Shown piece by piece: positions 4,005 through 39,209 of a stretch of 64,000 bases of DNA (within the stretch, counting starts at the first letter, position 1; every line of letters begins with the position of its first letter). The stretch is from Verrucomicrobiota bacterium. Lineage in GTDB: Bacteria > Verrucomicrobiota > Verrucomicrobiia > Limisphaerales > J093. The translations under genes were made by a program, and so were the position numbers. The notes under the pieces were generated by a model. It saw nothing but the letters and a program-made list of their open reading frames with translations, did no database searches and had not been told where the DNA came from. The DNA is taken from contig VHCO01000003.1 of the NCBI GenBank assembly GCA_016871715.1, forward strand, positions 1-64,000, written 5' to 3'.

Positions 4005-4088
4005 CGAAGCCGGGTGATTCGGAGCCGCCGCTTGTTGGGCTCGGAACTTGCGCCGACGGGCGACACGCGGGAGAGTAGGGCACGAGTC

Positions 4089-7000
4089 ATGAAAGCGAAC
4101 ACGCTCAGGCGGATGGCTGGCTTGGCGTTGGGGATCTTGTTCAGCGCAGGGCTCGCCCATGCCGGCAACGGCGCCCTGGAGCTTCGCAAGGGTTATTTTT
4201 GGGATCCGCAGCAAGGCGATTATTTCCTGGCCCGTGGCATGGCCTACCAGACCTGGAACCCCCCGGTCGGTGCCGATCAATCGGTCGACCAACTCCGCGC
4301 CGACTTGGTCGAGTTCAAGAAGCTGCACTGCAATTCGGTCCGGTGCGAGATGGTCTGGAGCCAGGTGGAACCGCGCGCTGGCGAATTCGATTGGACGCGA
4401 CCGGATGCGTTGGTCCGGACGGCGGAGGAGTTGGGTTTGAAGCTATTCGTTTTGGTGGGATTCAATTATGCGCCGGCGTGGTTTTCCTCCGACTGGATGG
4501 CGGTGAACAGCCTGAACCGCACCTCGGTCGTGCTCAATTACGAGCATCCGGAGGTCAGGCGCACCTACGCGAACTACATTGCCAAGGTGACGGGGCGCTA
4601 CCGGGACAGCACGGCGGTCGGGGCGTGGATCCTGGGCAACGAATACGCCTACTTCGATTTGTGGAACCCCGACCACCGTTTTCTGGGTTACGATCCTCAT
4701 TCGCTGAGGAGCTTCCGCACCTGGCTGGCCGGGCGCTATAGCGGAGACATCCAGGCGCTCAACGAGGTCTGGGAGACGGCTTATGCCGGGTTCGAGCAGG
4801 TGGCGATGCCGCGGGTGTATCCTGCGGACCGCCATAGTCCGGCTTACCACGACCTGATCCAGTGGCGCGAAGCGAGCATCGGGGAGTACGTCGCCGTCGG
4901 TGCGGTCGCGGCCCGTGCGGCGGATCCGAATCATCTGCGGACCTACTCGATGATCGGCGGCCTGTTTATCGGGTACGACTCGGTGTACACGTGCGAAGAT
5001 GCCCGGACGATTGTCGAACACTGCGCGGCGGCCGGGGCGCCGCTGGATTTCTGGTCGATCAACAACTACGCCTGGGCCACGCTCAGCTCGGAGATGCGGC
5101 TGGGGGATTTTGGCATCAGCCGGCATCGGACCGATTCCGGTCTGCCGGTTTTCATTTCGGAGACGGGCCATAGCACGACCGATAACTTGATCCCGGGCGC
5201 GGCGGCTCGGCAGGGCGATGCGCTGCCCGCCCAGATGTGGGAGGCCTTCATGGCCGGGGCCATCGGTACCCACTTGTTCACTTGGAACGACCGTGAACTC
5301 TTTGGCGGGGTCTTCCAGCGCGAGCGCGGTTTAGGCGTGGTCCATCAGAATCGAACCCCGAAGAGCCCGGCCTACGCGAACCTGACCCGGATGTTCCAAC
5401 GGATGGAGGAACTGCGGGTGGAACGGCTCTTCGCCGAGTCCTCCGACCCACCGGCCAACCTCGGTCTGTTCTGGCCCAAGGCGGCCAAGATGGGGTGGCC
5501 GCGCGCCAACCAGGAGAACGCAATGCTCTGGAACGCCCTCAAACGCCTCGGGTACGAACCGCGGGTGCTGACCGATGCCGCCTTCGAGCGGGGTGAAGCG
5601 ACCGACCAGCCGGTCCTGATCCTCTCGCGCTGTTACCAGATGGAGCCGCAGGATCTGGACCGGTTAAGCCGCGAGATTCTCCCCGCCGGCATCCATCTGC
5701 ACGCCAACGCGGATTTGCCGGGCCGCTTCGATGCCCGCCACCGGCTGAACCCGGCCTGGCCTCGCGCCATGGACACACTGTTCGGGCTCGAGGTCACCCG
5801 TGCCGTGCCCGCTTGGGACGCGGGCGTGCTCGAAGAAGATCAGATGCGCACCTACCGCAAGCTTTTCTTGCAGGTCGTTTCCGATCTCGGGCCGCTGCAG
5901 GCCGGGTTCACCGACTCGATTCGGACCTGGAAGATCTGGCAGGATGTGCGGACCACCCGCGGCACCACGGTCGCCACCCATACCGGGATCGAGGGTGGTC
6001 ACCCCCCCCACCCCGGCGCTGCACCTCACCACCGGGACCGCGCGCACCGCGGTCAACACCTTCGCCCTCGCAGATCTGCTGGTGGTGGATGCCGACCAAC
6101 TTCCGCCAACTCACGATTGGGACCACCGGTACCGCTGGCTGCGCGCCATCTACCGCGACCATTTCGGGTTGATCCCGCCCATCGACCTCAGTGGGCCGGG
6201 GGCCCAATACGTGATGTCGGACACTCGCCACTGCAGCAATGGCAGCCTGTTGGTTTCCCTGCTCAACGGGCACACCAATGCCGCGCAGGTCACCCTAAAC
6301 GCTCCCGCGCTCCTGCGCGGTTGGACCGTGGAAGATCTCCTGCGGGGGGGCGTGATCGAGTCCGACTCCGACGGCGTCCTCCAACTCAACCTGAGCGCTG
6401 ACCAATACGTGCTCCTCCACGCGTACCCGCGTGTCGATGGCCAAGACGGTTCGCGCATCAATCCGAATCCGAACAAACTCTGGCTCGAGACCGCGCCAGC
6501 CACGGTTTGGCCCAACGACGCGGGGCACACGGTTCGCGTCGGTCACCATACGGTCGCGCCCCTCCAACTGACGCTCGCCTTCGAGCGGCTCTCATGGCCG
6601 CCTCAGACTCTGCGGCAGACTGCGCCTCTGACCATCCACGGGCGTGGGACGCGGGATCTGTGGATCGAGGTCCCAGACGCCGACCCCGCGGACATCCACC
6701 ACCGGTCCACCGCGGAGGGTGGGGTTTATCGGTGGCGCGCTCGACTGTGGCAGGCCGGGCGAGCGGTCGCGGAGGCGGAGCTACCGGTGCGGCTGCTGTG
6801 GGGCGTGCGACCCCGGGTGGTGCCACCCGCGACCGTCCACGCCGGCCAGGCTTACGCGATCGAATTGGAGTGGCAAGACCTGCCGGCCTACGAACCCGAC
6901 CAGGCCGGCCTGCCGTTGAGCCGCACGGCCCACTGGGAGCGCTGGGCTCAAGCGCGTCAGCACTACGATGTCGCCCTCCAGATGCTGGACCCCAGGGCAA

Positions 7001-8771: not shown

Positions 8772-9013
8772 CTCAAATCAACTCTTGTAGGTCACCTTCC
8801 CGGCCTCGGTCACCAGGGCGTGGATGTCCTTGTCTCGCAAAGACGGATCCGTTAGACTCCGCCTTAGCACGTCGCCGCAGCGGGCGCCGACAGCTTCGAG
8901 TGCGCTCGACGCCGGCGGTCCAGCCGGTAAACCATCCAACCACCGTGCACCATACCGGCACGCAGAAGCTCGAGGGGGCGAGTACCCCGAGCGCGAAGGG
9001 GCGCACGCCGATC

Positions 9014-9018
9014 GGAGG
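9014..9018 (+). promoter_or_regulatory. Ribosome-binding site (GGAGG) for the giant gene
   Basis: GGAGG lies four bases before GTG 9023. That GTG opens a signal peptide (CKVALLVCLAAGRF ... HSAQA) in a different frame from the main body, which identifies it as the real start. Confidence 0.5.
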
Positions 9019-9022
9019 ACCG

Positions 9023-12000
9023 GTGCCGACGCTGCTGTGCAAGGTGGCGCTTCTGGTCTGCCTGGCCGCTGGGCGCTTTGGGCCCGCCGGGCACTCCGCC
9101 CAGGCCGAACGACGCAGCGGCACGTCCCCCGAGCCGTCCCCCCCCCGACGGGTCTCACCATGGCCGAGTACGCCGCCCACCTGCGGCAACAACTTCCCGC
9201 GCCACGGATTCACGGAGCCGGGCTGGAGCAAGCCCAGATCGAGGCGCGCCTGCAAGCTGATCGCGATTACCAGCAGTTGACGCGTGAACGGCTTGCGGGC
9301 AACTGGTTCGCCGCGCTCATTTCGACCAACGCCCCGGACGGTGCCGTCGTCCGAGGCCGATTCGACTCGTGGGTCGGATTGATGGAGTATCTGGCTGAGC
9401 GGGAAGTGTTGGTCGAGATTTGGGCGCCTGGCGAAGGTCCCCAGGGCGAGGCGCGGCGGCTGACCGCCGCCGAGTTAAGTCATCGGCAAGGACAACGCCA
9501 CGAAGGCCCCACCTTCGTGACGGTCACCCTCCACGACCCCGCGGTTGGCGAGTTGACGACGTACCGCGTCGAGTTTGGCTTCCAGGCAGCCCAGCGCGCC
9601 CTGGCAACCGTGGCGGCTTACGAGCGGCACCGGCGGCTGCAACTGTTGTGCCGCGAGATCTTAGCGGCCAAGGACTCTTCGAGCGGTCTGCCCGACGCCC
9701 TGGCCCAGTGGGAGAAACTCCAGGCCACCGCGGCTGACCAACGCGTTGCGATCGCCGCGCGCGCGCCTCGCCCACGCAACCGGCAGGATCCCTACGTGGC
9801 CGTCGAGTATCACGTGGACGAGCAAGGTCTGTTCGCGGCGGTCGCCCAGTTCCTGCCTGCCAGCGCGCTGCAACCGCGAGTCCGCGATCGGGCCCAGGTC
9901 CTCGAGCTCAGAGCGGCCCCGGGGCAAACGCCGCGCGAAGCGCTTGGCTTTCAGACGCGGGGTGTGAGCGACCGACTCGAACCGGCCCCTTACCCGATCT
10001 CAGGTTTGGACCCCGTCGAGCTACGGATCCGGGACCCGCGCCAACCGGACCCGCGCCGTTGGAACGTGCTCGAGTTCGGTGAGTCGGCTCTGGTGCGTGA
10101 ATCTGCCCTGGCCCGGTTTGCGTTGCTGAACGCGCACCTGGAATGGCAACGGAAACGCATCGCTGGCAAGCGCGCCAACCTTGCCCTGGTGGCCGAGCCC
10201 TTGATCGCCGCACTGAACATCGGCGGCGGCTTAGCCGGGCTGGGTTTTCCCGCGGGGGAAGCCGGCCGGCTCCTCTATAACGTTCTGGCCTGGCAGCTCA
10301 TCGCCGATGTGCCGCGCCTCAGGCAGATGCGCGAGCTCTTCGCGGTCATGGCCGCGCGCGACCGCCATCCCCAACTGCGCGCCGTCCCGGAGCGGTTCCT
10401 CGCCCGCGAGGATATACGCCAGCTCGAAGCTGCCGGCCGCCAACTCACCGACGTCCAGATCGACGCCTATCTGGCGCAGATGAGCGACGACGACCTGCGG
10501 GCCATGTTGTTGCTGGCACAGATGGGTTTGGTGGACGCCCGCATCACAGGATTCTTGAACCTCCTGACCAGCGCGTTGCGGGTGAGCAAGGTCTCTGAGC
10601 AGCCTGGCGTTTGGCGCGATTTGTTCAATAATGTCCGCTTCGCCCTCAACGGCGAGCTCAACCTCAAGACCTTGGCGGCACTGGCCGCCGGACAGCGTGT
10701 CCTAACGCCTCTGAGCGGCACTTCACTCGAAGACCTGAGCCGCGGCCGCGGGCCTGCGCGGGCCTGGCTGCAGTACCTCGAGGTCAGCGTGGACGTGCGG
10801 GCGATTGTCAACACCCTGGTTCGCCTCACCAAGCCCACCTTCGCCCGCAAAGAACTCGAAAAGCCCCTACCCTACGCGCCGCGTCTGTCGGATCTAGCCG
10901 CCTACGAAATCCGCATCTTCGGCTTCCCACTGTTCCTCTTCTACAAGCGCGGCTTGATCAAGGCCGACCTCGAGGCCTACGAAAACGACTACGCCTATGG
11001 GCTGATCGGCACTCGGTTGGTCGAGCGCTTCCCTACCCGTGCAAGCATGGAAACCGAGATTCGCGCCGGGCGCATGGTCCCGCTTGGCTATGTGCGCGTA
11101 CCCGACGGCCGCGGCGGCTGGAAGCCAACGCACCTGGCCGTCTTCGGCCACCGAATCCCCAGCGGCAAGCACGAAGACAAAACCGCGGTCGTCATCTATG
11201 GCCTCAAGGCGTACCGCGAACATTCTCAGCTTGTCGAACGCGAGCTGGAGCGGCTCCGACAATTCGAGCAGGGCCTGCGCGACGGCGCGGTGATTGAACA
11301 AATCGTCGGGGCTCCCCCCGAAACCGACGTGCCATCCGCCACCCGCGAACCCGAGGTGCACGTCGGCGCCGAGGCGGTCGCGTACCGTTACCAAGCGCGG
11401 CTGGCCCACCTGATCGAGGGGCGGCGCCAAGCGTTGCGCAGCTCTTGGGGCCTAGCCGATGAACCCGAGCTCCGGAGGTCGGAGTCGAACGCGCCGTTTG
11501 CCGAGTGGCCCTCGAATGGGTCCCACGAGGCGGAGTTGGTGGCGGTGGATCGGTTTCATAGCAGCTTCATCTATCGTCGCACGATCGACGGGCAACCCCA
11601 GGAAGTGAAGGTGGTCTTGATCCCCAGTTTGGCGCAGATCGAACGGGCGCAGGAAAAGGCGACGGAGGCAGCGGCCATTGAACAATGGCGGCGCGAGACC
11701 GCGGCGGGCCAGCGGCCGGGCCTCGCACTGCTCAACGAAGCCATCCCCCTCCACGACCGCTGGGAGATGGGGCCGCTGTTGCGCGACGCCAACGGCGCGG
11801 TGGTGGGGGCCGGCGTGCGCGCCGGTCCCGAGGCGTTCGAGGCCATGCTCGATGCTGTGGATCGGTTACCCTGCAGCGAACGCGCCCGATTCCAGTTCAA
11901 TCGGTACGCCGCCACGTTGCTCGAACTGGACCTGGAGGGCGACGGCCAGGCCCAGCGGGTGTTTCTCACCCTCGAGTTCCCCCTCGGCGAGGTCCAACGC

Positions 12001-15000
12001 GAATGGACCCATCCGCTCACCGGCGTACGCCAGACGCTGCGGTTCGAGGACGGCCGCTGGCGGCGCGCGATCAGCGAGGATCGCATCCTCGAGCTCGAGT
12101 ACGACGACCAAGGAACCGAAGTCCGCAGCCGGTCCTTTGCCAACGCGGGCTCGCGCCAGGCGCCGCAGTCCGGCCGCCTAATCGAGGAAACCGTCACAAC
12201 CGACGTTTGGTGGCGCGATCTGAGCAAGCGCGGACTCGACCCGTACGAGCCGAACATCGCCAAGGTCCGCATCAACCATGTGACCGGCCAAGTCACCCAC
12301 GAGACTTACGGGCTGTTTCCCTTGCCTGTCCAAACGGTGGACGAGTTCTTCATCACACGCTCGCGCTACACAGCCGAGGGCCACAATGTCCAGTCGAAGA
12401 TGTGGGACAATGGGGTCGACGCGGCTGATTTTCAGCGGTCGAGGCTCGCGAAACTGCTCGAGCCGATTACCGGACGGCCGCGCTTTGCCTTGGCGTCGCA
12501 AGCGGGCGTGGCGCCCGGGTCAGCCGACCGACCTGGGCTGGGGCGCTGGTTAACTCTCCAACGCGACGACCTGGTCAAGGGCATCACGCAGACCGTGGTG
12601 ATCGACCTCGCCTTGGAGGGACGGACCGTGAGTCAGGGGTTCACCGACCCGTTCGACGGCACCACCAATAGCTTCGCGGTCACGACCGCCTTCGAGTATG
12701 ACGACGCTTTCCACGCCGGACTGGTGCCCGCGCGCTCCATCACCCGAGCAGCGACGGGGTTCGTGCTCACCCGCACAACCACCTTGGCCTACGATCCCGT
12801 CACAGGCCGCCTGACCGCCCGCGAGGTCGAGCACACCGGCAAGGTCCGCACCAACACCTGGCTCCGCCCCTGGCCCAGCCCGGTCGAGGTCCTGACGCAG
12901 ACTCGGCGAACGGTCAACCGCCACAGCCAGCACGATACCCAGCTCGAGGATTTCGTCGGCACCTACGATCCCACCAACCGACTCTGGCACCTCGAGCGGA
13001 CGCCCTGGCATCGGCCCGGCATCCCCCGCGCACCGATCTCTGAAACACGCAGTGCCTTTGGCCGATTAATCGCCCTGCGCGTGGGAGACACCTACGCCAG
13101 CCGCCCTGTCTATGACCAACACGCTGCCGAAGTCAAACGCCTCACTTTCCGTCATGATCCGACGGCTCAAGCGCCCGCGCTCGTGCACCTCGCGGAGGAG
13201 GATTACCGGTGGCTGGACGGACACCGCGACGCACGCATCGTGACGTTCTTCCACGGACGCGAATGGCCCTACGACGAATACCGGCGCCAAACCGACGCCG
13301 ACGGGCGTACGGTCGTAGACGGCATTCGCTCTCTCCCGGGCCTCGAACTCCGTACCGAGCTCACTCACGACGGCCACAGCGACCGCGTGATCCGGTCTGA
13401 GGTTTTCCAGAACGGCCAAAACCGGCTGGCCCTCGAGGCCTTGCCAGAAATCCAGTCCGCGGACGGTGCCTGGCTCCTCCGGTTCCGATCCACTCCCTCC
13501 TGGGGACTGGTCGCCACCAACACCTATCGTGCCGATGATCCGGTCGGTCGGCCGCTCGCGCGCACGTACGAAAATGGAGACAGCGTCCGAGTGCTGGCGT
13601 GGTTCCCGTTTACCGCCCTTGCGCGCGTGTCCGAAGTGCAGGACCGGGAGGGACGCCGGCAAGAGCGGCGGGTGCACGAACTCCGAGCAGGCGTCATGGG
13701 TCTGCCCTACGACCTGATCACGCGCTACACGATCGATCCGTGGGGTGAACCGGCCCTGAGCCGCCGTGAAGGTCTGGTCTGCGGCACCGACATCGCCCTG
13801 TTCGAGGAACACGACGAGAACCAGGTCCTCTTCGATCTGTCCGCAGCGTACCGCGCGCCGCGGTTGGCGGTGGCCGGCACAGGCCGTGCGGGCCGAACGG
13901 TTTGGGTGGCGGGCAGACGGCAGCCGCACGTGACCGACTTGTTCCGCAGCGAGCTGCAAACTCCACCCGCGAACCGTGAAGCCAATAGCCACCCGGAGCG
14001 AGTGCTGATCATCGAGCGAATGGGACTGCGCGGCTTGTTCTACCACCCGGTCCACCGCCAGCGTCTGGATCGGAGCGGGCGCCTGCTCGAGGAAGTGACC
14101 TCGAGGATCCCGGCTTTCGAGGGGGCGACGCCCACGGAACCGGCGCTGTGGGCCGCCGCAGACGGAGCAGCCCCCGAACAGCGCTGGGTCTATCACTGCC
14201 AACCCGGGTATTGGGTCGAGGCATTCGCCGCCCCCAGCGGAGTGTTGACCGCTAGCTTCGCCACGCAACCAGCTCCGGCCCCCACGCGTTCCTGGCCGGT
14301 GAATCATTCCGGCTGGCGCCAGGTGCCTACGGAAATTCTGGGCTATCGCCGCCAGCCCGACGCAACTCCTCAGCGCGGCCCGATCCCACCTCACCCCACC
14401 GCAGACATGCTGTTTCGCCGACAGAGTGCCCCCCGCCTTTGGCAACAGAATCCACACTTGCCCGGTGTCAGCAACGCGTGGATGTCGTGGACCACAACCG
14501 CCTTCGGTGCCGATGGCCAGGCCCGGGCCGAGTCAGACACATTCTTCGACGCCGCCGGGCGGGTGGCCACGACGCTCGTGCGCCAGCCCAACAGCCGGCG
14601 GCAATCAGGCACCCGGCTCGCGTATGTCCTGCCACAACCTGCGCGCGCCTCGGCAACCAACCAAACACCCGCGGCCGGCCCAGCGCAATGGCGCCATCAC
14701 AACCTCGCCGTGGGCGTGGCGGAGATCCCGGTCGAATTGGCTGGGGAGCGAGATGTCTCACGTTGCGATTTCCTGGCGGTCTATTTCCAGGGTCAGGCGC
14801 TCGGCTTACGCCTCACCGACGCGAGGGGTCGGGGCGTTGTGGCGGCCCACCTGACCCGTCATCCCGGTGCGCCAGGCAGCCTCGGGCTCTGGCCCCCGTC
14901 CGCCGCGCACGTGTTGTGGCTGCCGACCCCGATTCTACCCACTCACGGCGCGAGCCTGAGCGCGCCCTACCCGTGGGTAGACCAGGACCAAGTACTTGCG

Positions 15001-16281
15001 GTGGCGGTACCCCACCTGGCCCAAGCGGGCCTGGACGTGCACCGACTGACAAGCGCTACCGTCCTGGGAACGGCCGTCGTCAGGGAACAAGCCGCCGTAT
15101 CGGGCCTGTTCGAGTTGGCCCACGGCGGTCCGGTGCGCTCGCCGGCAACTGACGAAAGACCCCAGTTCCAACACCAACACAACTCCAGCGGTCTGACGAC
15201 ATTCACCACGCGCGTCGTGCCCCGGCGGGGGCTGGGACGCCCATCCACGGCGGGCCAGATCTCGCGCATTGAACACCGCGGCCGCCGCGTCGGCCTGATT
15301 CACCCCCACGCCTGGCAGCGCCAGGCCCCCGTGTTCACTCTCCTCGACGACTCGCCGCCAGACCCACCGCAGCCCCTGTACTCGATCGCCGCGGCCCACG
15401 GCCGGTTCGTCGAGTATTACAGGGCGCACCGGGCCGAAGATACCCACATCTACACCGTGGCACACGGGTTCGGGCCCGCCAAACTCGAGGTCTACCGCAG
15501 CGGCGTGTTGGACGACGAGACTGCGCCCGGGGCATTGGCGTTTGGCGGGGAGAACCTCGTGAGCCTGCCGCTCGATAAGGCGGCCGGCGCGCTGGCGGGA
15601 AGCTTGGCGACATTGAAGAACCGCTGTGCCGCCAGCGTATTCACCCTCTGCGGCGAGCGACTCCTCGGCCGTTGGTTCGCGCCCAGCCCACGCGCCCCTC
15701 AGTTCGCCGAGTGGACGCGCCGAACGGAGACCGCAGCCGCGCAAGCGGCTGAGGTGCGGCGGTTGCCGATGCTCGCCAGTGCGTTGTTGCCGCTCCAAGA
15801 GCTGCCCGAGTCGGCACTGGTGCCCGGCCAAACAGCCGGCACGAGTCCGCCCGCACCCTTGGCCGTCCGCACCGCTTCGCTCAAGGCCTACCTGAACTTA
15901 TTATCGGCTCGTTACCCGCGCACAGGCCTGATCCCGACCAGCCTCGGAACCGCTGCGGAACCGTTTGTCGACACGGTGGGCGAAGCCCAGCTCATCAAGC
16001 TGGCCGTGCAGTTGCGCGAACCCTCCCTGGCGGGGGCGTTGCTCAGCTTCTACTGGGAACGCTCCCAAGGGGGAACCCAGCGCCTCCACGCGGCGTATGA
16101 CGCCCGTCACGGCGCCGCACTAACCCTGGATCCGGCGTATCCGCGTCCGATCGATGCCGCCCAGACGGCCGCAGCGCACGTGGCCATAGCCGAAGCCGCG
16201 TTCGAGCTCGGACTCGCCACCAGCGACACTCATGCTCTCGAGTTCGGCCAGAACCTAGTCACTTTGCTGCTGGAGCAGTAT
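9023..16281 (+). CDS. Giant secreted protein, periplasmic part with YD-like repeats (probably one gene with the next entry)
   Basis: GTG 9023 with GGAGG four bases upstream gives a signal peptide (CKVALLVCLAAGRF to SAQA). The frame then breaks in the C9 run 9138-9146; one added C would join SPEPSPP to PTGLTMAEYAAHL and the long frame that follows. About 2,400 residues have no confident domain match by eye. The middle (about 12,600-13,600) contains YD/RHS-like segments such as TTLAYDPVTGRL and HDGHSDRVIRSEVF. The last 250 codons (from about 15,870) are helix-rich with a GLIPTSLG...DTVGEAQLIKLA pattern like an alpha/alpha-toroid found in several glycan-active enzymes; this is a weak call. Near 16280 the frame shifts again: LLLEQY in frame 1 continues as IARLHGVTAAEHWGLDW in the frame of the downstream membrane part. 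After 16282 the original frame is Arg/Gly/Pro-rich out-of-frame text up to 16629. I therefore read 9023-21565 as one gene of about 4,180 codons. Confidence 0.6.
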
Positions 16282-19200
16282 CGCCCGGCTCCACGGCGTC
16301 ACCGCCGCCGAACACTGGGGACTGGACTGGGGACTAGCCCTGGATCGACCAGATGCGATCGTTGTGGACCTCACCGCCCGGTTCGCGCGCTTGGCTCGCC
16401 AACTGGGCCAGGTCGGGCTGGCAGAACGCGCCGAGTTGACGTTGCGCGATGTGGGCGACCAGATCCGCTGGCCGTCCGTCCTCACCGCTGCAAGCCCAAG
16501 TTCGCCCCTCCGCACCGGCCAAGGCACCGTGGTCCATCCCCGCATGCCGGGCCACCACGCCGGCCCCGGCCTCGATTGGCCGGAAACTGTGACGGTCGCC
16601 CTCGGGCAGCCTGCGCCCGAGGTGGGTGACTCACAGCCAGCGGGCCAGCCTATCGAGCGGCGCCTCACGCCGGGAAGAGATATCCGCCAGGTCTTCTGGA
16701 CGGCCGCCCTGTTTCACTTGGCGTTGGTGCTGGTCACGCTCTTTTGGTGGTTGCTGAGCTGGCTCAGGCGCCGACGCTCGAGGACGCGACCGCCAGGCAG
16801 CGGTTGTCTGGTGCCCGAGGCCGTGCTGGAGTTGTCCGAGGAGCGCTGGGCCAAACGCGTCTTGGGCGCGCGAGTGCCCGCCACCAGCCCGCACACCCGC
16901 TACTCCAACGGCGCCATTGAACAGAATTTCCATATGCAGTTGCGCGCGTTCTACAAGCTGGCGATCGAGTGGCGGCTCTTGGCCAATGGTTGGCCCGAAA
17001 ACGACCCTCGCTTGGTCGAGGACACCAGCGATCCGTGGCTGAACGGGCTGGATGAGTTCGCGGTGGTGGTCGGCGTCTACTCGCGGTTCGTGGTGAAGGC
17101 CGGGCGCAAGGACGGACGCCGCCGCGCCGACGTCCTGGCCGAGCACGAAGACAGCAATCACATCTGGTCGCGCCTGGTGATGTACTTCTCCGAGTCCCAC
17201 CTCAACCTGCTCGGGCACTTGAAGGAATACAAGCAGGACCCGGTGCAAGCGGAACTCTACGGTGTGAGCGACCACATCGAGCTGGTCCTGCGGCTCCTGG
17301 GCGTGCGCCAGCGCACGCAAGCCCTTGACGCGCGCACCGCCTTCGACGCCCCGGCCAACCCGCAGGCCCTGGACCTGCTCATCCTTCAGCAGCCCGACGC
17401 CACCCTGGCACAAGTAGCCGAGGCGCTCGACCGCAAGCTCGGGATTCCCGTCGAGCATTTCATCCGATTTGTGCGGGGGTACAAGTCCTTCAAGGAACGC
17501 GAGCAACCCGACCCGATCCATCCTTATCTGCTCGAGTTGGCCAAGATCCTGCCCCATTTCCTGCTGATGGGGCTGGTGGGTTTGATCTGGTACAACACCG
17601 ATCTGGGCGGGCTGCGACTCTATCCCGTTTTGCGCGAGCTCGCCCTGGGCCTGGCCTTCGACGTCTTTTCCCTCCTCTGGGCCGGCCCGCTCATCCTCGG
17701 CTTCGCCCTGAGCGTCATCGCCCATTACCTGGGCACCTACCGCTACCGCTGGCGCACGCGCAGCTTCGGCCAGCCCACCCTGGGCGTCGACACGACCGTG
17801 ACCAGCTTCTTCCTCAAACCTGGCCGCGCCGCCACGCCCGCCATGCGCACCGGCCGCGGGTGGAACCCTCGGCTCTACGCGCGGGCAGGTTGGGTGTTGC
17901 GGGCGGTGGGCATGTCGGGGCTGGGGTGGGTCCTGTTGCGAGTCGAGCTGCCGGGCTTTGCGGCGTTCATGTTTGTGAAGGCCTTCCTGGCCACGTGTCT
18001 GTTCGTCGAGGCGGCGGCCATTTGGGTACCGCTGCTGGTCTCGCAGTCGAGCCGATGGCTCGAGGACCGCGTGGCGGGTTGCCCCCACGCGCCTGCGGCG
18101 CTCAAATCTCTCAACCAGTTGAACCTGATCCCCACACGGCCCGCGTCGTTGTTTTGGCTCTCGTTCAAGTACCATTTTCAGCCCTCGGTGCCCAGCGGCA
18201 GTTGGCGGTCTACGACCGGATGCCTGCTCTTCTACTCGGTCTTCTCCGGCGCCTTCTTCCTGGCGGGCAGTTACATGTTCAAGCAAGCCCTCGAGTTTTG
18301 GTTCCTCGAGACCTATCGACTCGGTTGGGATTTGGGCTTGGCGTTGGGCACGCTGATCTTCTGGAACACCATGTACCTGCTGCGCTTCGGCCTGTTTGTG
18401 CTGCTGGCCAGCATCGGCGCCGCCTTCGCCACCTGGCCGCTCAAGAGCCTCGCGGCCCTCGTCAGCCTGGCCTGGATCGGCTGGTGCAGCTCGGGTCTTC
18501 CCCCCGCCGAGTCGGCAGCCGCACAACCCTTGCTGACCTGGCTGCTGCTCGCGCTGGGGCTCGGGCTCTTGGCCAGCGAGGAGACCCTGCTCGCCTGGTT
18601 CCGCCGCGCGTGGGAAAGAACTGGCTCGGCTCGCCGCCGTGCGCGCCACCGCGAGGCGGCGTTAGCCGCTTTCCGGCACGATCCTCAGCGCGCCTTGGCT
18701 GTGGTGTACATGAGCGGCGACGATTTGTCGTTTCACAAGCTCACACCCACCCTGCTGATGGAGCGCGTCAGCGTGTTGCGCGAGCGGCTGAACTCGGGCG
18801 GCCTCGAACTGCTGCGCGGGCTGGGCGTCGTGCCTGACGACGCGACGCTCGGCGCGTGGTTCGGCGAGTTGTACGAACTGGAGAGGCAAGCCGAGACGAC
18901 CCTATGGCACCCGCTGCAACTGGTCGTGGCCGGGACCAGGCCGACGCTGGAGGCGGAGTTGGGGCTGAATCTGACCGTGGCCACCGCCGAAGCGCGCAGT
19001 CGTTTGCTGCGGGCCTGGCACGCGCGGCGTTGGCTGGTGACGATGATGTCGACGGCCGGCCATGCGCAGGACACGGGCATTAACCTGGTGGACATCGCCC
19101 TGCGTTTGGCTCAGGAAGATCTGGGTGCCCGCACCGCCTTTTACCTCATCCAGAACAAGTACGATAACCAAGCCCACAACCGGCCGTCCCAAGTCGACTA

Positions 19201-21565
19201 TGACCGCGGTGAGCTAGGCCAAAGGGAGAAACTGGCGCGCCTGTTGATGGCGGTGGCTCCGGGTGCGCGCGCCTACAATGTCAACGATTGGACCCCGTTC
19301 GGTTTCAAGGCGGGAGGGTTGGTGGGCATGGACCTGGTGCCCGAGGAAAGCCTCAAGCTGACGAATATGCTGGTGCTCGATCGCAACGCCAACGCCCACG
19401 ATCTCGACGCGTTAATGGCCGACGTCAACGAAGCCCTCGCCGACCCGGGCGTCGTCAACGTCATCCCGGGTCGGAGCACAACCAATACCCTCACCCCGCT
19501 CGGGCAAGGCTCGCAACTGATCGAAGAAGGCCAGCGTTTCTTCACTCGCGGGGTGATGGCCCTGGGCGGCACCGGCGCGGAGACGCTCGGCACCGGCTGG
19601 GGCAATATCCAGGCAGTCTATTACGGCCGAGTCCAACGTGCCCTCTGCGATCCCGACAGCCCGAAGTTGCCCCTGACCGCCGCGGCGGGCCGCGGGGCGC
19701 CCTTCGGCGAACGGTGGGAAGGACTCATCGGCTTCGGCCCGCATGCGGATGGCATCTCGGAGGACATTTGGGGCGTCACCCAGGCAACCCATAACGCCCT
19801 CGGGTTGGGCCTGCAACCCAAGTTCCGCGCTTCCCGCACGCTCTGGCACAAGATCCGCGAGAGCTGGAGCCACGCCGAGTGGTTCTCAGCCTTCCCGCGC
19901 TGGTCCGGCGGCTACCTCCAGATGATGCTCGATCCGCTCATGCAGCGAATCAACGACGCCGGGCCCCTGTGTGTGTTCGCCAAGGAACTCCGGGCCCATG
20001 GCGGCCGGTTCTTCCTCAGCTCGCCTTTCGCCTTGTTGAGCATCCTCGCCATGCCCCTGGCCATCATCGCCGACGTCTCCCCGTTCGTGCAGATTATCAT
20101 CCTCCTCTGGAACCTCGGCCTGGTCATGAACCAAGTGCTCACGGTGCTCGGCTTGTTCGCCTGCCTCAAAGCCACCGGGTTCAACCGCGCCACCGCCCTG
20201 GCGGGCGCCATCGCTGCCGGCGCGCCGGCCGCCACCGCCCCAAACCTGGCGCCGGTCGCTCCGGCCCTGGCGGCGCTGGGGTCTTTGGCGGGCGGCTTTG
20301 GCCTGGGGTTGGGGCGATGGCTTTACGCCCGAGGCCGCGACGTGATGCTCTTTGGCCCACAACTGGTCATCCACGCCTTGGGCCAACTCGTGCGCCAAAG
20401 CCTCGAGTTCGCCCTCTCGGGGGCGGCGGCCAACGACGCGCGGACCGTGAACGTAGCCTTTCGCGCCTGGGTCGGCCCGCGTGAGGATCGTCCCTCCGAG
20501 GGGTATGCGAACTTCGTGAACCTGCGCACGGTGGTATGGGGGGTTGGCCTGGTCTCGTTTGGATTGAACCTCTTCGCGCTTTCCCATCTGGATTTCCTCA
20601 ACGTGCTTCTCCTGCTCCCCTCCCTGCTCTTCAGCGTGAGCACGTTGCTTGGCCCGTTTGTCATGAGCCCGAAACCGGGCCGCCACTTGGGTCACCGCGC
20701 CTGGCTGCCCAAGTCGCTGGGGTGGTTGGCCAGCTTCGCCCTCTACGTCCTGGTGGCCGGGTTGGTGACCCGAGGCGGCTGGCTGGGCTGGTCGGGCCTG
20801 CTCCTGTTCGGGTTGGGGGTGGGCTTTCTGCTCGCTTGGGGCGCGCGCTACGTGGGCTATCCCTTCCGCGTTCGCCGCCTGATTCGCCGACTCGAGCAAC
20901 GGCTGACCGAGGCGGGTTTGGCAGCCGCTGAAGCGAGCCGATTGGCCCCTCAAATCGTTCGCCAAGGAGGTGGGAACCCCGACAAAGCTCGAGCGGTCTT
21001 GGACCAAGCAGGCCTCTCGCCAGAGCAGCAAAGGCGCCCCCTGGAGTGCGTCACTCGACAGATCCAGCCGTTGCTCCAACGCCCCGCGGCCGACCACCAG
21101 CACGGTTGGTTTCGGACCCGGCGCTGGGCCTGCGAATGGGGGCGCTCGTTCGTGCTGGGCTTGTTCACGTTGGTCTGGTTCTTCGTGGTCCCGATCCCCG
21201 GCTTGCTCACCGTCACCACCCCGGGGGACTACCGAGTCTCGCTTTCGCTCAGCGCCCTCCTCTGGCTGGTGGGTGGCGCCGTTGGGCTGGCCCTCGCCGG
21301 CCTTAGCGTGAGCCTGGTCCTCGAGCGGTTCACGGTCCGGGGGCTGAGGGGCCACGGCCTTAGCGCGCGCGGGGCTCGCGCCTATCGGCGGTTCACGTTG
21401 CTCAGCCAGCCCCCCGGCCGGTTGAGCGCAGTTCAAACGGCCAGCCTCCATGCCTTGTTCACTGACGCGCAGACTTACTTTGATCAGCGCAGCTACGCCT
21501 ATGCCTGCAGCACCCTGCGACAGATCGAGGAAATGCTCGACCGCGCCGGCCTGGCCCGCGCCTGA
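16280..21565 (+). CDS. Giant protein, C-terminal polytopic membrane half: putative glycan synthase resembling callose/1,3-beta-glucan synthase
   Basis: The open frame reaches back to about 16280 and joins the preceding entry by a single frameshift; as a separate gene it could start only at GTG 16364, which has no clear ribosome-binding site and lies inside the upstream domain. The order is: end of the helical domain; a transmembrane helix at about 16690-16760 followed by an arginine stop-transfer; a soluble segment; a cluster of hydrophobic helices (about 17,540-18,600); a soluble domain (about 18,700-19,960); and a second helix cluster (about 20,010-21,330). The soluble domain has LDRNAN at 19379-19393, a GQRFF ... 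GG stretch, SED followed by IWG at 19757-19771, and PRWSGG from 19895. This order recalls the GT-A 'DxD ... ED ... RW' logic. The SEDIWG region and the two helix clusters around a cytosolic domain particularly recall GT48 glucan synthases, which are known from eukaryotes. The family call is by eye; a divergent GT2-like enzyme is the main alternative. Confidence 0.5.
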   Translation: MARLHGVTAAEHWGLDWGLALDRPDAIVVDLTARFARLARQLGQVGLAERAELTLRDVGDQIRWPSVLTAASPSSPLRTGQGTVVHPRMPGHHAGPGLDWPETVTVALGQPAPEVGDSQPAGQPIERRLTPGRDIRQVFWTAALFHLALVLVTLFWWLLSWLRRRRSRTRPPGSGCLVPEAVLELSEERWAKRVLGARVPATSPHTRYSNGAIEQNFHMQLRAFYKLAIEWRLLANGWPENDPRLVEDTSDPWLNGLDEFAVVVGVYSRFVVKAGRKDGRRRADVLAEHEDSNHIWSRLVMYFSESHLNLLGHLKEYKQDPVQAELYGVSDHIELVLRLLGVRQRTQALDARTAFDAPANPQALDLLILQQPDATLAQVAEALDRKLGIPVEHFIRFVRGYKSFKEREQPDPIHPYLLELAKILPHFLLMGLVGLIWYNTDLGGLRLYPVLRELALGLAFDVFSLLWAGPLILGFALSVIAHYLGTYRYRWRTRSFGQPTLGVDTTVTSFFLKPGRAATPAMRTGRGWNPRLYARAGWVLRAVGMSGLGWVLLRVELPGFAAFMFVKAFLATCLFVEAAAIWVPLLVSQSSRWLEDRVAGCPHAPAALKSLNQLNLIPTRPASLFWLSFKYHFQPSVPSGSWRSTTGCLLFYSVFSGAFFLAGSYMFKQALEFWFLETYRLGWDLGLALGTLIFWNTMYLLRFGLFVLLASIGAAFATWPLKSLAALVSLAWIGWCSSGLPPAESAAAQPLLTWLLLALGLGLLASEETLLAWFRRAWERTGSARRRARHREAALAAFRHDPQRALAVVYMSGDDLSFHKLTPTLLMERVSVLRERLNSGGLELLRGLGVVPDDATLGAWFGELYELERQAETTLWHPLQLVVAGTRPTLEAELGLNLTVATAEARSRLLRAWHARRWLVTMMSTAGHAQDTGINLVDIALRLAQEDLGARTAFYLIQNKYDNQAHNRPSQVDYDRGELGQREKLARLLMAVAPGARAYNVNDWTPFGFKAGGLVGMDLVPEESLKLTNMLVLDRNANAHDLDALMADVNEALADPGVVNVIPGRSTTNTLTPLGQGSQLIEEGQRFFTRGVMALGGTGAETLGTGWGNIQAVYYGRVQRALCDPDSPKLPLTAAAGRGAPFGERWEGLIGFGPHADGISEDIWGVTQATHNALGLGLQPKFRASRTLWHKIRESWSHAEWFSAFPRWSGGYLQMMLDPLMQRINDAGPLCVFAKELRAHGGRFFLSSPFALLSILAMPLAIIADVSPFVQIIILLWNLGLVMNQVLTVLGLFACLKATGFNRATALAGAIAAGAPAATAPNLAPVAPALAALGSLAGGFGLGLGRWLYARGRDVMLFGPQLVIHALGQLVRQSLEFALSGAAANDARTVNVAFRAWVGPREDRPSEGYANFVNLRTVVWGVGLVSFGLNLFALSHLDFLNVLLLLPSLLFSVSTLLGPFVMSPKPGRHLGHRAWLPKSLGWLASFALYVLVAGLVTRGGWLGWSGLLLFGLGVGFLLAWGARYVGYPFRVRRLIRRLEQRLTEAGLAAAEASRLAPQIVRQGGGNPDKARAVLDQAGLSPEQQRRPLECVTRQIQPLLQRPAADHQHGWFRTRRWACEWGRSFVLGLFTLVWFFVVPIPGLLTVTTPGDYRVSLSLSALLWLVGGAVGLALAGLSVSLVLERFTVRGLRGHGLSARGARAYRRFTLLSQPPGRLSAVQTASLHALFTDAQTYFDQRSYAYACSTLRQIEEMLDRAGLARA

Positions 21566-22930: not shown

Positions 22931-23310
22931 CGCGCGCGGCGCGACCGCTCCACCGATTCCGCTGGCCCTGAGCCTCAGCCCACCTGACACCGGCTGCGAG
23001 GGCGGATCTGTGGGCCTATGTATTGTCCCTCTGAGCTGGGTCGTCGGCCCAGCGGATTGGACGACCTTCGCCTCGCAAGGCGCCGGCTGGTTGGACCCGC
23101 ATCGAGGGCGGAACCCTCATCGTGGGGCAACCTCAGGCCCTCGGCGCCGCCACAAACAGCATGCTTCTCGACGGCGGTACCCTGCGACTGCTCAAGCTGC
23201 TGCCGCCGGGGATGACCTCCCCAACGCTGTTGTCGTCCTTGGCGGTGAAGACCATCGCCCGGTCTGAGCCCTCGTGCTGGGTCGCCGCGAAGGTAGTCTA
23301 TGGTCGAGGC

Positions 23311-25284
23311 TCAGTTCGCCACGGCCGCGCGAATCACCACCGAACCGACCACCCCTTCCGTCCCATCAGGGAACGACACAACAACCACGTTCTCGGCCTT
23401 CAGGGCATTCGGTTCCAGAGCGATGCACTTCGTGCTGGCGTATTCGCGGTCGGTGAAGCGCTCTGCGCTGTCCTCCAGCGGCGTCACGAGCGATTGTCCG
23501 TTCAGCGTGACCGTTGGCGATCGGCTCCGATCAGGCGGACGCGTCAGGCCGATGCGCAGGATGGCGTAGTCAATCGGCTTGGTGACGGGCACCTTGACCT
23601 TGAACACGGCGTTGCTGCCTGGCCGCGTCACCGCGTCGCCGTAGCATACCACTTCATCGACCGCCTGCGCTTGCTTCACGGGCGCGCCGAGATCAGCCAC
23701 CACCACGACGGCCTCGCGGCCGGCCAGTTCCAGCCGCTCCGGAGTGGGCAAGGTCTGCTTAGAGAAAGACGAGGTGAAGTCGGGGTTGCGTCCGAAGCGC
23801 CGCAGCTCGACCTGCGTTGGCGCGATGCCATGCAAGGCCACCGTTTCTGGTCGGGCGCTCAGGTTGTTCACCGCCAGATAGAGCTTGCTGCCACTGACGA
23901 AGGCGCGCGCTTGCAGGTCCGGGTCGGTGCACAGCGCCTTGACCCGCCGCCCCGAGACGCCTTGGAAGAGCCTGTAGAAATCCATCAATGGCGTTTCCAC
24001 CCAGCGGGAGTTGTCCGTGTAGTCGTAGGGCACATACAGGCTGGCGTAATACTTGGGGTTCCAGGACCACGTGTTGAAGAGGAGAAACAGCACGGCTTTT
24101 TGGACGGTGTGCGGGTGGTCCATGAACGACAGGGTGTTGGCGATGATGCTGCTGACGTGGTTGAGCGCGACAATCGAGCGCTTCTTCATTTCACGCTCGA
24201 AGCCGGTGACGTGGGGGAAATGTCTTCGGGCGATTTCCTCGGCAGCAGATTCGCCGTCGAACTCGCCCTTGGGCTGGCTGCCGTCATAGCCGCCGTGCTC
24301 GCTGATCACCATCGCGACCTCCTTGCCGAACGCGTTGATCGCGTAGTTCGGCACCAGGTCCAGCGTGTTCTCGAGCGCCAGGCCCGACTGGATTCGTCCC
24401 CGGTACTCGCCATTGGTCCAGCGCAGGTAGTCGTAAACGTGAAACGAGTAGAAGTCCAGGCGACCGCCCGTGTTGTCCATGAAGTCCTTCAGCCCGTCGA
24501 ACGCCCGGTAATTGTCCCGGAAGAAGTAGGAGACGGACATGCACAGGCCGCCCACCTTGACCTCCGGGGTGGCGGCGTGCACGGCCTGCATCGTTTTCAA
24601 GTGCCAGTCCGCGAAGGGTTGCAGCTTGAAGAACGACCAGTGCGGCTCGTTGACCGGCTCGTAGAACCGCGGGCGGTCGAAGTCGGTGTAGTTGTATTTC
24701 AACACGGCGGCGGACAATTCCGCGGCGGCCTCGATGTTCCTGGGGAAGTACTCCGCATGCGTTCCGGCACGGGACTCCTTGGTATCAAAGCGGCCCATGA
24801 ACTCGGGAAAGGCGTTGTGCTTGCCATGCGCTGCCACGTCGAGATTCGCACCGAAGTCGGCGCGCATCCGTTCGCTGACCGGCGGGTGCTGGCGCTGTTG
24901 GAGCGCCGTCAGGTCTGCATAACCCGGTCGGTCGGCTCGTTCCTTGATCAGGTGGCTCACGGCCTTGACCGTGCCGAGTTCGCGACCAAAGGCCACGCCC
25001 AGGTTCCGCACGAGGTCTTCATACATCGCATCGTCTTTGACCCGTTGCTCGAAGCCTTTCCCCGGATCGCACAGCCCGAAGTAGCGTTTGCGGACCAGTT
25101 CCGAAACGCCCTGGATGGCGCGAGTCGTCTGCGGTTCGACGACAAGGGAAGGCTGCGACCAATCAACGGCGCTGGCCGTTCGCGCCCCGGCCGCTCGGGA
25201 TTCGGACGAACATCCAGCGACGGATGCCAGGAACAACAGGCACGGAAGCAACCGCAGTTCGGATGGGAGGCAGACGTTTCTCAT
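23311..25284 (-). CDS. GH86 family beta-agarase/porphyranase-like lipoprotein
   Basis: ATG 25284 is chosen because it gives a lipoprotein signal (CLLFLASVAGC); an in-frame ATG at 25362 would add 26 residues in front. The mature protein of about 635 residues has a GH-A clan barrel: probable acid/base Glu213 in EPVNEPHW and probable nucleophile Glu329 in MVISEHGGYD, with supporting motifs FYSFHVYDY and LFNTWSWNP. Beta-sandwich domains follow (VALHGIAPTQVELRRFG, then TRPPDRSRSP). These features match GH86 enzymes, which cut agarose or porphyran. Lipid anchoring suggests action at the cell surface. It lies on the same strand as the GH16 remnant and the apiosidase-like gene, from which it is separated by a plus-strand ATPase gene. 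Confidence 0.85.
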   Translation of the reverse strand: MRNVCLPSELRLLPCLLFLASVAGCSSESRAAGARTASAVDWSQPSLVVEPQTTRAIQGVSELVRKRYFGLCDPGKGFEQRVKDDAMYEDLVRNLGVAFGRELGTVKAVSHLIKERADRPGYADLTALQQRQHPPVSERMRADFGANLDVAAHGKHNAFPEFMGRFDTKESRAGTHAEYFPRNIEAAAELSAAVLKYNYTDFDRPRFYEPVNEPHWSFFKLQPFADWHLKTMQAVHAATPEVKVGGLCMSVSYFFRDNYRAFDGLKDFMDNTGGRLDFYSFHVYDYLRWTNGEYRGRIQSGLALENTLDLVPNYAINAFGKEVAMVISEHGGYDGSQPKGEFDGESAAEEIARRHFPHVTGFEREMKKRSIVALNHVSSIIANTLSFMDHPHTVQKAVLFLLFNTWSWNPKYYASLYVPYDYTDNSRWVETPLMDFYRLFQGVSGRRVKALCTDPDLQARAFVSGSKLYLAVNNLSARPETVALHGIAPTQVELRRFGRNPDFTSSFSKQTLPTPERLELAGREAVVVVADLGAPVKQAQAVDEVVCYGDAVTRPGSNAVFKVKVPVTKPIDYAILRIGLTRPPDRSRSPTVTLNGQSLVTPLEDSAERFTDREYASTKCIALEPNALKAENVVVVSFPDGTEGVVGSVVIRAAVAN

Positions 25285-25594
25285 GGTTCGGTTCTGATTG
25301 TCGCGAGATGTTCTCCAGGATTTCGGAAGGTGATACTGATGCCCAAACGCGTCCACGGCCACATTCTAAAGGGAGCCGGCGGAAAGGTCGCGGAGGAATT
25401 TCAGTGTGCCGTGCTCGCCGGCTTGGCGGAGCTTTCAGTCAGGGGCACCATACCAGCCGCCAAGTGGCCACCGGCACTCTGTTTTGAGAAATTCCCGTCG
25501 CTTCATGGTCTGCACTTTCTTTCGAGGTGGCTCATTGATCTGAGCATGTCACCCGACCGCAGGCGGGGAGGTACTACGAAATCTTCCATTGCTG

Positions 25595-25621
25595 TTGTAA
25601 GTATGCATTGCATTATTACAA
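25595..25621. promoter_or_regulatory. 27-bp dyad (operator-like) upstream of the AAA ATPase gene; notes on the 25285-25642 gap
   Basis: The sequence reads TTGTAA-GT-ATGCA-T-TGCAT-TA-TTACAA, so 22 of 27 positions are arranged as exact inverted repeats around a central T. It lies 21 bases before ATG 25643 in the most AT-rich stretch of the area. It could be an operator for a dimeric regulator or an RNA hairpin in the leader. The rest of the 358-bp gap between the divergent genes at 25284 and 25643 shows no gene; it must hold the GH86 promoter. Confidence 0.55.
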
Positions 25622-25642
25622 TACCGCTGTGATTATGCACGC

Positions 25643-27520: not shown

Positions 27521-29143
27521 CTAGGAGGAAGATTGTTTGTCGGCGACGACGCTGAGCCGGAGGTGCAGCACGACCGGCGTGCTTCCCCAGTGCGCCGGCG
27601 GGGTGAACGTGGCCGTGCCGTTGCGGAACGTCCCTGCGGCGGTGCGCCGGCCGGTGTGCGGATGGAACCACTCGGCCTTAAGCGGGGCGGCTGCGCCCGC
27701 GATCTTGAGCGTGAATTCACGGGGCACGTTCTGGAACGCGACGTATTCGCGGCCGGGATTCGCCAGACACCAGCCTTCGCTCACCAGGCCCTCCGAGGGC
27801 TCGAGCATCCAATAATCGGTCGCTCGCCAGAAATCGCCGAAGTGCTTGTAGTAAAGGTAACCGGGGGGGACATGGAGCGGCCGGATCACATCCCAAGCGG
27901 TGTAGGTGTAGTAGTAAGCCATGTAGCCGCCAGCCAGGGCGATCTCCCAGGCACGGCGTAGGCTTTCCTCGGGCGTCGAGTGGCCTCCACCGTAGGTCTT
28001 GTCCTCCAGACCGCCCGGGCCGGGCTCGTACTGAAATTCGACATTGACGACCGGCCACTGCCGCAGCGCGCGCTGTTTCAAGGCGGTTTCGCGCCACTTG
28101 CTGTGCTGTTGGTCGGCGCGGTAATCGCACAGGTTGTCGTACGCCCCGCTGTCGTAGGCTGCGTTGTCGTCATGCACGGTCCGGAGATGACGGTAGGGAT
28201 CGGTTTCGCGGAGGTATTTCAGCCAGCCCTGCTTGTAGGCGAGGTCCTTCTCGTTGTGGGCTTCTTTCGAGAAATCCCAGATCAGGTTCGGATACGCGGC
28301 GTAGCGGGCGACCAGCCAGCGGAAGTACAGGCTTTCCTCTTGGCTGCCGTGCGCCGGCCATTTGACCTGCTTGTTGTACACCTTGATCAGCATATGCGCC
28401 TGCATGCCGCGCTCGCTCAACGCGGCCATCACCCGATCGTAGTGCCGCCAATAGGCGAGGTTCATCCGGCGGTGATCGGGTTGCTCGTTCGAGCCCTCCC
28501 AGGCGTAAAGCGCCGGCGGGCCGTAATCGTCTGGGCCGGTCTTGCCCTTCCGCCAGCCGGTGTCGTGGGCGTAGGCGTTGAGGATCACGTAGTTGAAGCC
28601 GTGACGAGCCAGGATATCGAGCGACTTCTCCACGGTGGACACCCCCGGCTGGCCCAAGTCCAGCGCCCAGAGCCAGTCATATTCGTAACCCTGGAGGAAG
28701 AAGCGCGTGCCGTCGTCAAAGACAAAATGCCGCGGATGCGCTTGGTCCACGCGCAGGACGCCGTGAACGTTCGGATTCGGGTTCTTCCCGCAGGTGAAGC
28801 TGGCCGTCCGACCGTCGAGTTCCTGCAGGTCAGATTGGGTGACGAGCGTCCACGTGCCTTCCACCGTCGGTGCACAGCGGATCTTCCACGTGCCGTTGCC
28901 GTCGAAGAATCCTGGTAGGGTGAATTCCCTGCCGTCCGGCCCTTTGACCGCGGCGGCGAAACCTACCAGGAACGGATTCGGCGGCTGAGCCTGGGCGGCA
29001 AAGGTGAAATCGTGCGGCTGCCAGCGCGGAACCGCTGCTGGCGCGGCGGGTGGTGCGGAGGGGGCTGCGGCAGCCAGTGCCACCGGGAGCGCGGCCAAAA
29101 CGAAACAATGGACGAGGCAGTAGTGCGGGGTTCTGGACTTCAT
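27521..29143 (-). CDS. Secreted DUF5060/DUF4038 apiosidase-like glycoside hydrolase
   Basis: ATG 29143 is chosen because it starts a signal peptide (HCFVLAALPVALAAAAP); the frame extends back to 29353 in arginine-rich untranslated-looking sequence. The mature protein of about 510 residues has an N-terminal DUF5060 beta-sandwich (NPFLVGFAAAVKGPDG ... GFFDGNGTWKIR ... GTWTL), a TIM barrel of the DUF4038/apiosidase-like type (FFLQGYEYDWLWALD, YVILNAYAHDTGW, LIWDFSKEAHNEKD, and VVNVEFQYEPG with a probable catalytic Glu), and a C-terminal putative collagen-binding-type domain (NPGREYVAFQNVP ... WFHPHTGRR). It probably removes side-chain sugars from an algal or plant polysaccharide together with the neighbouring GH86 enzyme. 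The substrate cannot be read from the sequence. Confidence 0.8.
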   Translation of the reverse strand: MKSRTPHYCLVHCFVLAALPVALAAAAPSAPPAAPAAVPRWQPHDFTFAAQAQPPNPFLVGFAAAVKGPDGREFTLPGFFDGNGTWKIRCAPTVEGTWTLVTQSDLQELDGRTASFTCGKNPNPNVHGVLRVDQAHPRHFVFDDGTRFFLQGYEYDWLWALDLGQPGVSTVEKSLDILARHGFNYVILNAYAHDTGWRKGKTGPDDYGPPALYAWEGSNEQPDHRRMNLAYWRHYDRVMAALSERGMQAHMLIKVYNKQVKWPAHGSQEESLYFRWLVARYAAYPNLIWDFSKEAHNEKDLAYKQGWLKYLRETDPYRHLRTVHDDNAAYDSGAYDNLCDYRADQQHSKWRETALKQRALRQWPVVNVEFQYEPGPGGLEDKTYGGGHSTPEESLRRAWEIALAGGYMAYYYTYTAWDVIRPLHVPPGYLYYKHFGDFWRATDYWMLEPSEGLVSEGWCLANPGREYVAFQNVPREFTLKIAGAAAPLKAEWFHPHTGRRTAAGTFRNGTATFTPPAHWGSTPVVLHLRLSVVADKQSSS

Positions 29144-29682
29144 AGCAGTAGCTGGAATCACTGCGAGGAACGCTAACGCGTGAGGCGTCCCCGCTGTCCA
29201 TGTGACTTTGCGTTTTTCTCTTGTGCTTTTGCGTCGGTCCGGCGGCGCCCGTTCGATTGAACGTCGTTCACCGCCGCGTCGCTGTTGTCCGAGTCGCTGG
29301 GGGACCTTAGGTCGAGCGGGATATTGAACATGATGCCGCGTTGGCGCGCGCACCCCCGGTTCGCCTCTTCGAAGGCGGCTTGCCTGCGCCTTGGTCGCTT
29401 GCCTTTGTCGTCCACCTTTGTCGACCGCCTTTGACGGAGAGTCGCCCAGGGCTGACGCGGTTTGACTGGCCGGGAGGCAGCGGGCGAGACGCCCGCTCTC
29501 CGTTGGATGGGGGTGCGTGTCAGCAGGGCTTCAGGTCCCGGTGCCGTCTGCCGATGAGACCGGTTAGCGAACCTGTTTGTGGCCGATCGCCGCCGAGATC
29601 GTTGACCCACGTGGGTCCACCGCGAGTCCTGGCAGGTTGCCTTTGGAGGAACGACGTTGGCCAGAGAGGTGTGCGAACACAG
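29144..29682. other. Intergenic region between divergent genes (539 bp)
   Basis: Must carry promoters for the apiosidase-like gene (minus) and the 29683 gene (plus). I see no convincing -10/-35 pair. The stretch around 29370-29440 is repetitive in CCTTTGTCG/CCTTTGACG-like words, and a strong hairpin lies at 29479-29497. No gene was recognised. Confidence 0.4.
29479..29497. repeat. REP-like palindrome
   Basis: AGCGGGCG-AGA-CGCCCGCT is a perfect 8-bp stem with a three-base loop. GC-rich 'gcgggcgagacgcccgc' palindromes are, as I recall, frequent intergenic repeats in verrucomicrobial genomes. Only one copy was noticed in this window. Confidence 0.5.
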
Positions 29683-33243: not shown

Positions 33244-33458
33244 AAGCTCGGGGTGGTGGGTCAGGTTGAGGGGTTAGGTTGCGGAAGAGGCAATCGGCTG
33301 GAATTCGGCGACTGATTCGTGACAGAATGTCGCCGCACATGAAAACGGCCCCTTGCTGCCTGAGCCGGACCCACCATCCCACTCCGTCGCCGGAGCGTTG
33401 CCTGTGGCGGGCTGCCCACCCCCTCTCCGCTCAGCTCTCGGGCGGCCATGACGTTCGC

Positions 33459-39192: not shown

Positions 39193-39209
39193 CGCCTCGA
39201 TCGCCCGTC

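Follow-up and report, generated by a model that had tools for sequence, protein, structure and literature searches.

To our knowledge, the GT48 synthases are known only from eukaryotes. Their relation to GT2 has been recognised through structure, not sequence, and FKS1 and BcsA are relatives in this structural sense. The GT2 synthases are characterized by the motif set DD, DxD, KAG, ED, QxxRW, and FxVTxK (PMC11658790). In FKS1, DAN (D1102-A-N1104) is located where other GT-A enzymes have DxD, the ED motif corresponds to E1221/D1222, and UDP-glucose is contacted by K1082 and N1085. The chain is arranged in the order of accessory domain, TM1-6, GT domain, and TM7-17 (PMC12715860). A further point of comparison is Cgs (PMC10901819), a very large single polypeptide joining a GT2-like domain with other domains, all soluble domains of which are cytoplasmic and which has 6 helices.

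We analyzed a 64,000-nucleotide stretch of Verrucomicrobiota DNA (the window), which contains a gene of a giant protein family. The protein appears to join a membrane sugar-polymer synthase to an exported part of 2,500 residues. It has about 4,400 residues, is carried by a rare group of uncultured bacteria, and resembles nothing in protein family libraries. The likeness to Cgs lies in the very large single polypeptide. By contrast with Cgs, the additional module is N-terminal and would be exported, and there are ~18 or more helices.

Membrane half and its conserved soluble domain

The features of the window copy are listed in Table 1. As the preliminary description had proposed, a first membrane helix was located near 16.7 kb by hydropathy averaged over six members, and two hydrophobic clusters around a soluble domain were recognized by hydropathy and charge. 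The helices that separate the soluble domain from the first helix are even in number, with positive loops inside. If the N-terminal half is exported and the soluble domain lies inside, the positive loops are cytosolic, and this topology is consistent with both hydropathy and charge.

Table 1. Coordinates of the features in the window copy
Feature	Position	Strand	Basis
Signal-peptide-like N-terminus, frame 2 (VPTLLCKVALLVCLAAG...HSAQA); leaves frame at the C9 run	9023-9140	+	Translation, sequence
C9 run, coding frame changes from 2 to 1	9138-9146	+	Sequence; three-frame translation; L038 homology in frame 1 from 9160
Conserved N-terminal region, predicted exported, ~840 residues, no known family	9172-11691	+	Alignment A4
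Region of ~1,080 residues, few YD-like motifs	11629-14883	+	Alignment A5, motif counts
Second variable region, then start of helical domain, cut by deletion at 16281	14800-16281	+	Alignments A6, A8
Junction; ~150 residues absent relative to all intact relatives, with frame change	16274-16281	+	tblastn HSPs (L038 2474/2625 = 16281/16274); alignment
Open frame of C-terminal half, 1,733 aa from GTG 16364	16364-21565	+	ORF list
Initial membrane helix, following the exported half (aa 109-131)	16688-16756	+	Mean hydropathy of six family members
Conserved charged domain, cytosolic by topology (aa 132-388)	16757-17527	+	Alignment A7; topology
First hydrophobic cluster, ~8 membrane helices (aa 390-746)	17531-18601	+	Hydropathy, charge
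Soluble GT-A-like domain, ~470 residues, cytosolic by topology (aa 747-1217)	18602-20014	+	Alignments, dN/dS, motif chain
KAGG (K982), place of GT2 KAG; KSAG in L040	19307-19318	+	Alignment; in register with GT2 KAG (profile alignment)
LDRNA (D1006-R-N1008), place of GT2 DxD and FKS1 DAN; invariant in family	19376-19390	+	Alignment; PMC12715860
SED[IT] (E1133, D1134), place of the catalytic ED motif of GT2 and GT48	19757-19768	+	Alignment
PRWSGGYLQ, place of GT2 QxxRWxxGxxQ	19895-19921	+	Alignment
Second hydrophobic cluster, ~9-10 membrane helices (aa 1218-1653), and cytosolic C-terminus	20015-21322	+	Hydropathy, charge

Within the protein, conservation is highest in the soluble domain, with 60-76% identity to the window in the alignments. 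The blocks GFKAGG, LVLDRNA, GTGWGN, GISED[IT]W, and FPRWSGGYLQM are invariant or nearly so, and the motifs quoted in the preliminary description were confirmed in the sequence. S1132-E1133-D1134 is invariant in the family; the ED motif is not specific to GT48 because it is common to GT2. In the family motif [AS]-F-P-R-W, an A or S stands where QxxRW has its first Q, with R-W and GxxQ kept. The gating-loop motif FxVTxK was rejected as a further match to GT2 since it is not conserved: F-x-x-x-P-K was found in some members only, and FxVTxK was also absent from four of seven GT2 controls.

K-A-G, D-R-N, S-E-D, and R-W-x-x-G-x-x-Q follow one another in the order of the motif chain of membrane GT-A synthases. 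We searched for this chain with a pattern written after inspection of the sequence (KAG-like / hD-x-[DN] / ED / RWxxGxx[QE], with spacing limits). When the window domain was shuffled 300,000 times, the pattern never occurred, and of the 579 frames in the fetched DNA it was matched by those of the family and of true GT2 proteins alone. L040 fails the pattern because of its KSAG. The motif chain and hydropathy support the earlier proposal of a synthase-like C-terminal half with a two-cluster layout.

Gene structure, intact relatives, and the N-terminal half

The gene had been described as a single open frame from 9023 to 21565. In the window copy this was ruled out by two breaks. The frame of GTG 9023 reaches a stop after 85 codons, and the stretch is full of stops when read in one frame. 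The ORF list instead contains 8824-16629 (frame 1) and 16364-21565 (frame 2), each with start codons, and the coding order runs from frame 2 (9023 to ~9140) to frame 1 (~9150-16281) and again to frame 2 (to 21565). In the tblastn HSPs, 9160-16281 (frame 1) corresponded to residues 56-2474 of the intact 4,407-codon relative L038 and 16274-21538 (frame 2) to its residues 2625-4399, with residues 2475-2624 skipped. This frame-wise homology indicates two defects in the window copy: one base has slipped at a homopolymer, and ~150 codons have been deleted, with the frame changing at that point. When the missing ~150 residues were sought elsewhere in the window's own genome, including other contigs, only weak matches were obtained (E 0.007 or worse). 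As assembled, the window copy is disrupted, through real decay or assembly error.

In relatives, the proposed single polypeptide was confirmed by uninterrupted open frames of 4,407 (L038) and 4,444 (L040) codons; further frames, cut by contig ends, extended over 3,731, 3,440, and 3,323 codons. The C-terminal half was found as an open frame in 7 of 58 relatives or was fused in frame with the N-terminal half in L012-L015, L038, and L040. Within the window's order, the search with the catalytic region (A1) detected the family in 10 of 320 genomes and that with the N-terminal region (A4) in 11 of 313. Both halves co-occurred in the same 9 genomes. One relative is a groundwater MAG labelled Verrucomicrobia bacterium. 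Outside the order, a sample of 388 genomes of the phylum gave one weak match only, in G384 (L037; E 7e-4 over 388 genomes), which was judged to be chance. Plasmids and viral contigs were also searched, and no relative was found.

The family is under purifying selection. Between G016 and G621, dN/dS was 0.105 over 2,085 codons, with values of 0.04 for the catalytic region, 0.12 for the helical domain, and 0.16 for the first helix cluster.

Several copies are incomplete. Compared with L038 from G669 of the same genus, the copy L022 (G145:C6, 8337-19361) is without internal pieces of ~1,145, 550, and 546 nt; together with the window copy, no fewer than two MAGs thus have this gene broken by internal deletions, through either decay or an assembly artefact. 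A divergent copy of ~32-35% identity, L018 (G048:C266, 2702-5764), comprises the helical domain and the first helix cluster, contains two TAG stops, and does not continue beyond this part; no catalytic domain was found on the contig stretch read. In the A4 search, N-terminal-half fragments were found in G252 on two contigs (L137 and L138, with frame breaks and stops) and in G608 (L139, ending at the contig end). Neither genome gave a match in the catalytic-region search.

The N-terminal half comprises ~2,500 residues. The signal-peptide-like start noted earlier at GTG 9023 was confirmed by translation in frame 2, and L014, L015, and L038 have signal-like N-termini at the corresponding position, supporting the proposed export of this half. 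The A4 region is 45-50% identical within the family and gave no PDB match beyond chance. The adjacent region (11629-14883) is, to judge from its sequence, probably beta-rich, and no PDB or Pfam family was found for it. The "YD-like repeats" described previously held up poorly: each protein has 1-5 copies of the motif where 0.4-0.7 would be expected, and the RHS repeat models gave no match. These copy numbers and the absent Pfam match do not support an RHS/YD-repeat array.

Database searches and comparison with GT48 and GT2 synthases

Profile searches of every part of the protein against Pfam, NCBIfam, PADLOC, and PDB gave no match, and no Pfam match was found anywhere in two full-length members, including the GH94 phosphorylase and GH144-like domains of GT84 cyclic glucan synthases. 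With the GT48 model PF02364 (Glucan_synthase), 7 family genomes were searched at E<=10 without a match; hmmscan of all members likewise gave neither PF02364 nor a Pfam GT2 match.

In a low-threshold hhalign comparison with GT2 synthases, KAG, LDRN/FDAD, and RWxxGxxQ were in register and the ED motif was misplaced; of 60 block-shuffled controls, one scored higher (P=0.038). Against GT48, P was 0.39-0.73. For a few pairs, local alignments to GT2 reached z values of 2.9-3.8, with 1-2 of 200 shuffles scoring as well, and the rest were near chance. Those to FKS1 and callose synthase remained at chance level (z below 1.4); the FKS1 fragment was taken letter for letter from PDB, and the callose synthase fragment is approximate. 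FKS1 and BcsA themselves gave a z of only 0.7, indicating that sequence alone cannot decide at such a distance. AlphaFold2 models reached a pLDDT of 34 for the GT region (from two sequences only, the window and one relative) and of 47 for the helical domain (from two sequences only, L011 and the window), the predictions being too poor because of too few sequences. A TPR-like fold for the helical domain was set aside, as the matches were weak and came from the pLDDT 47 model.

The family resembles FKS1 (yeast, 1,876 aa, PDB 7XE4) and callose synthase in its giant size and, as judged from hydropathy on the family side, in the order of cytosolic accessory domain, helix cluster, GT domain, and second large cluster. 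D-x-N at the DxD site and an [NS]ED motif (SED[IT] in the family) are also common to both. The K-D-ED-Q spacing of the family (24/127/53) is nearer to that of FKS1 (20/119/48) than to that of BcsA (20/96/47). However, there is no detectable sequence similarity to these proteins, and the family is bacterial and has KAGG, RWxxGxxQ, and the N-terminal half. In addition, K-x-x-N of FKS1 (K1082, N1085) is K-x-x-G in the family, where K982 is followed by A-G-G (S-A-G in L040) with no N. With the processive GT2 synthases (BcsA, CesA, and HAS), the family shares KAG, ED, and RWxxGxxQ in the same order and a weak profile signal. It differs from them in having D-x-N (D-R-N in all members) for DxD, QxxRW without Q, no conserved FxVTxK, approximately twice as many helices, and an exported N-terminal half. 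Given the GT48-like D-x-N, ED, order, and spacing, the GT2-like RWxxGxxQ and KAG, and the lack of a PF02364 match, we filed the family under neither GT48 nor GT2. Its sequence shows a weak affinity with GT2 and no detectable one with GT48, and it most likely works like both.

The neighbouring genes examined encode hydrolases, HSP70, an ABC transporter, Dus, and a class-III aminotransferase. No gene family was common to the neighbours of different loci and no sugar-pathway neighbours were conserved; therefore, no partner gene points to a substrate. In the window, glycoside hydrolase-like genes (GH42-like, apiosidase-like, and GH106) are located at 4014-6401, 27521-29353, and 33279-36329, as in a polysaccharide-using organism. 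An 836-codon open frame without a Pfam match lies downstream of the giant gene (23122-25632), and on the minus strand a pair of neighbouring open frames that overlap (36865-41537) both match the membrane protein family YfhO (PF09586). Other giant frames with GT2 (PF13641) matches were noted in G000 (one match, G000:C277:2446-2997, inside 2,940 codons) and G016 (three matches, G016:C271:11910-15206, inside 2,213 codons); they are apparently unrelated to the family.

Proposed function and alternatives

We favor the view that the family is a new GT-A membrane glycan synthase, fused in a single chain to a giant periplasmic module, with a probability of approximately 0.6. The ~2,500-residue N-terminal half would be exported via the signal peptide, and the chain would then cross the membrane and pass through the cytosolic domain and the first cluster of ~8 helices into a cytosolic catalytic domain with a putative GT-A fold. 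This domain would use a nucleotide-activated sugar as substrate, possibly processively, through K982 and D1006-R-N1008, with the ED motif (E1133/D1134) as the predicted catalytic base and the acceptor held near R1179-W1180. After passage through the second helix cluster, the product would encounter the giant exported half, and this half may bind, modify, or guide it. Our confidence is lowered because no library or PDB profile recognizes the family, D-x-N replaces DxD, the first Q is lost, and FxVTxK is not conserved. It is also lowered by the hhalign P value for GT2 with ED misplaced, the mostly near-chance pairwise GT2 scores, the low pLDDT of the GT region, the absence of conserved sugar-pathway neighbours, and the post hoc choice of the motif chain.

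The preliminary description pointed to GT48. A true bacterial member making 1,3-beta-glucan, like the callose / 1,3-beta-glucan synthases, would explain SED[IT], D-x-N, the FKS1-like spacing, and the two helix clusters with a cytosolic accessory domain. This membership was not upheld, and we regard it as highly improbable: PF02364 found nothing in the 7 genomes, the FKS1, callose synthase, and hhalign scores were those of chance, RWxxGxxQ and KAG are GT2-like, and the N of K-x-x-N has become G. A highly divergent synthase of the GT2/GT84 clan that acquired a giant exported N-terminal half, with no special link to GT48, is a possible reading that overlaps our preferred one and differs in ancestry only. 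KAG, ED, and RWxxGxxQ argue for it, as does the best weak sequence signal, which was to BcsA-like GT2. We consider it less likely than not, as DxD is absent, there are many more helices than in BcsA, and the E-values were never significant.

The protein might instead be another kind of membrane protein, such as a transporter, flippase, scaffold, or sensor, its GT-like motifs being coincidental or inactive relics. The lack of significant homology, the altered catalytic motifs, and the lack of a sugar-gene context fit this view. It is nonetheless unlikely, given that conservation is highest and dN/dS lowest in the domain that bears the motifs and that neither shuffles nor non-GT frames contain the ordered chain. 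For the window's own organism, the two long frames with start codons could be read as two separate working proteins, one exported and one in the membrane. This is very unlikely: the gene is fused in relatives, and with the break inside the conserved helical domain and ~150 residues gone, both products would be truncated.

Beyond the preferred reading of a GT-A membrane glycan synthase, we put forward, as a conjecture with the odds against it, that the family is a new glycosyltransferase family bridging GT2 and GT48. In this case, a bacterial chain of ~4,400 residues would synthesize a polysaccharide in the cytosol, pass it through its own membrane channel, and process or anchor it by its own 2,500-residue periplasmic module. 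If true, this would be an unusual case of glycan synthesis, export, and processing within one chain. A bacterial family that combines D-x-N, ED, and RWxxGxxQ within a single domain would help in asking how GT48 arose from GT2-like enzymes. Whatever its function, a conserved family of 4,400 residues without any recognized domain marks a clear gap in protein family libraries.
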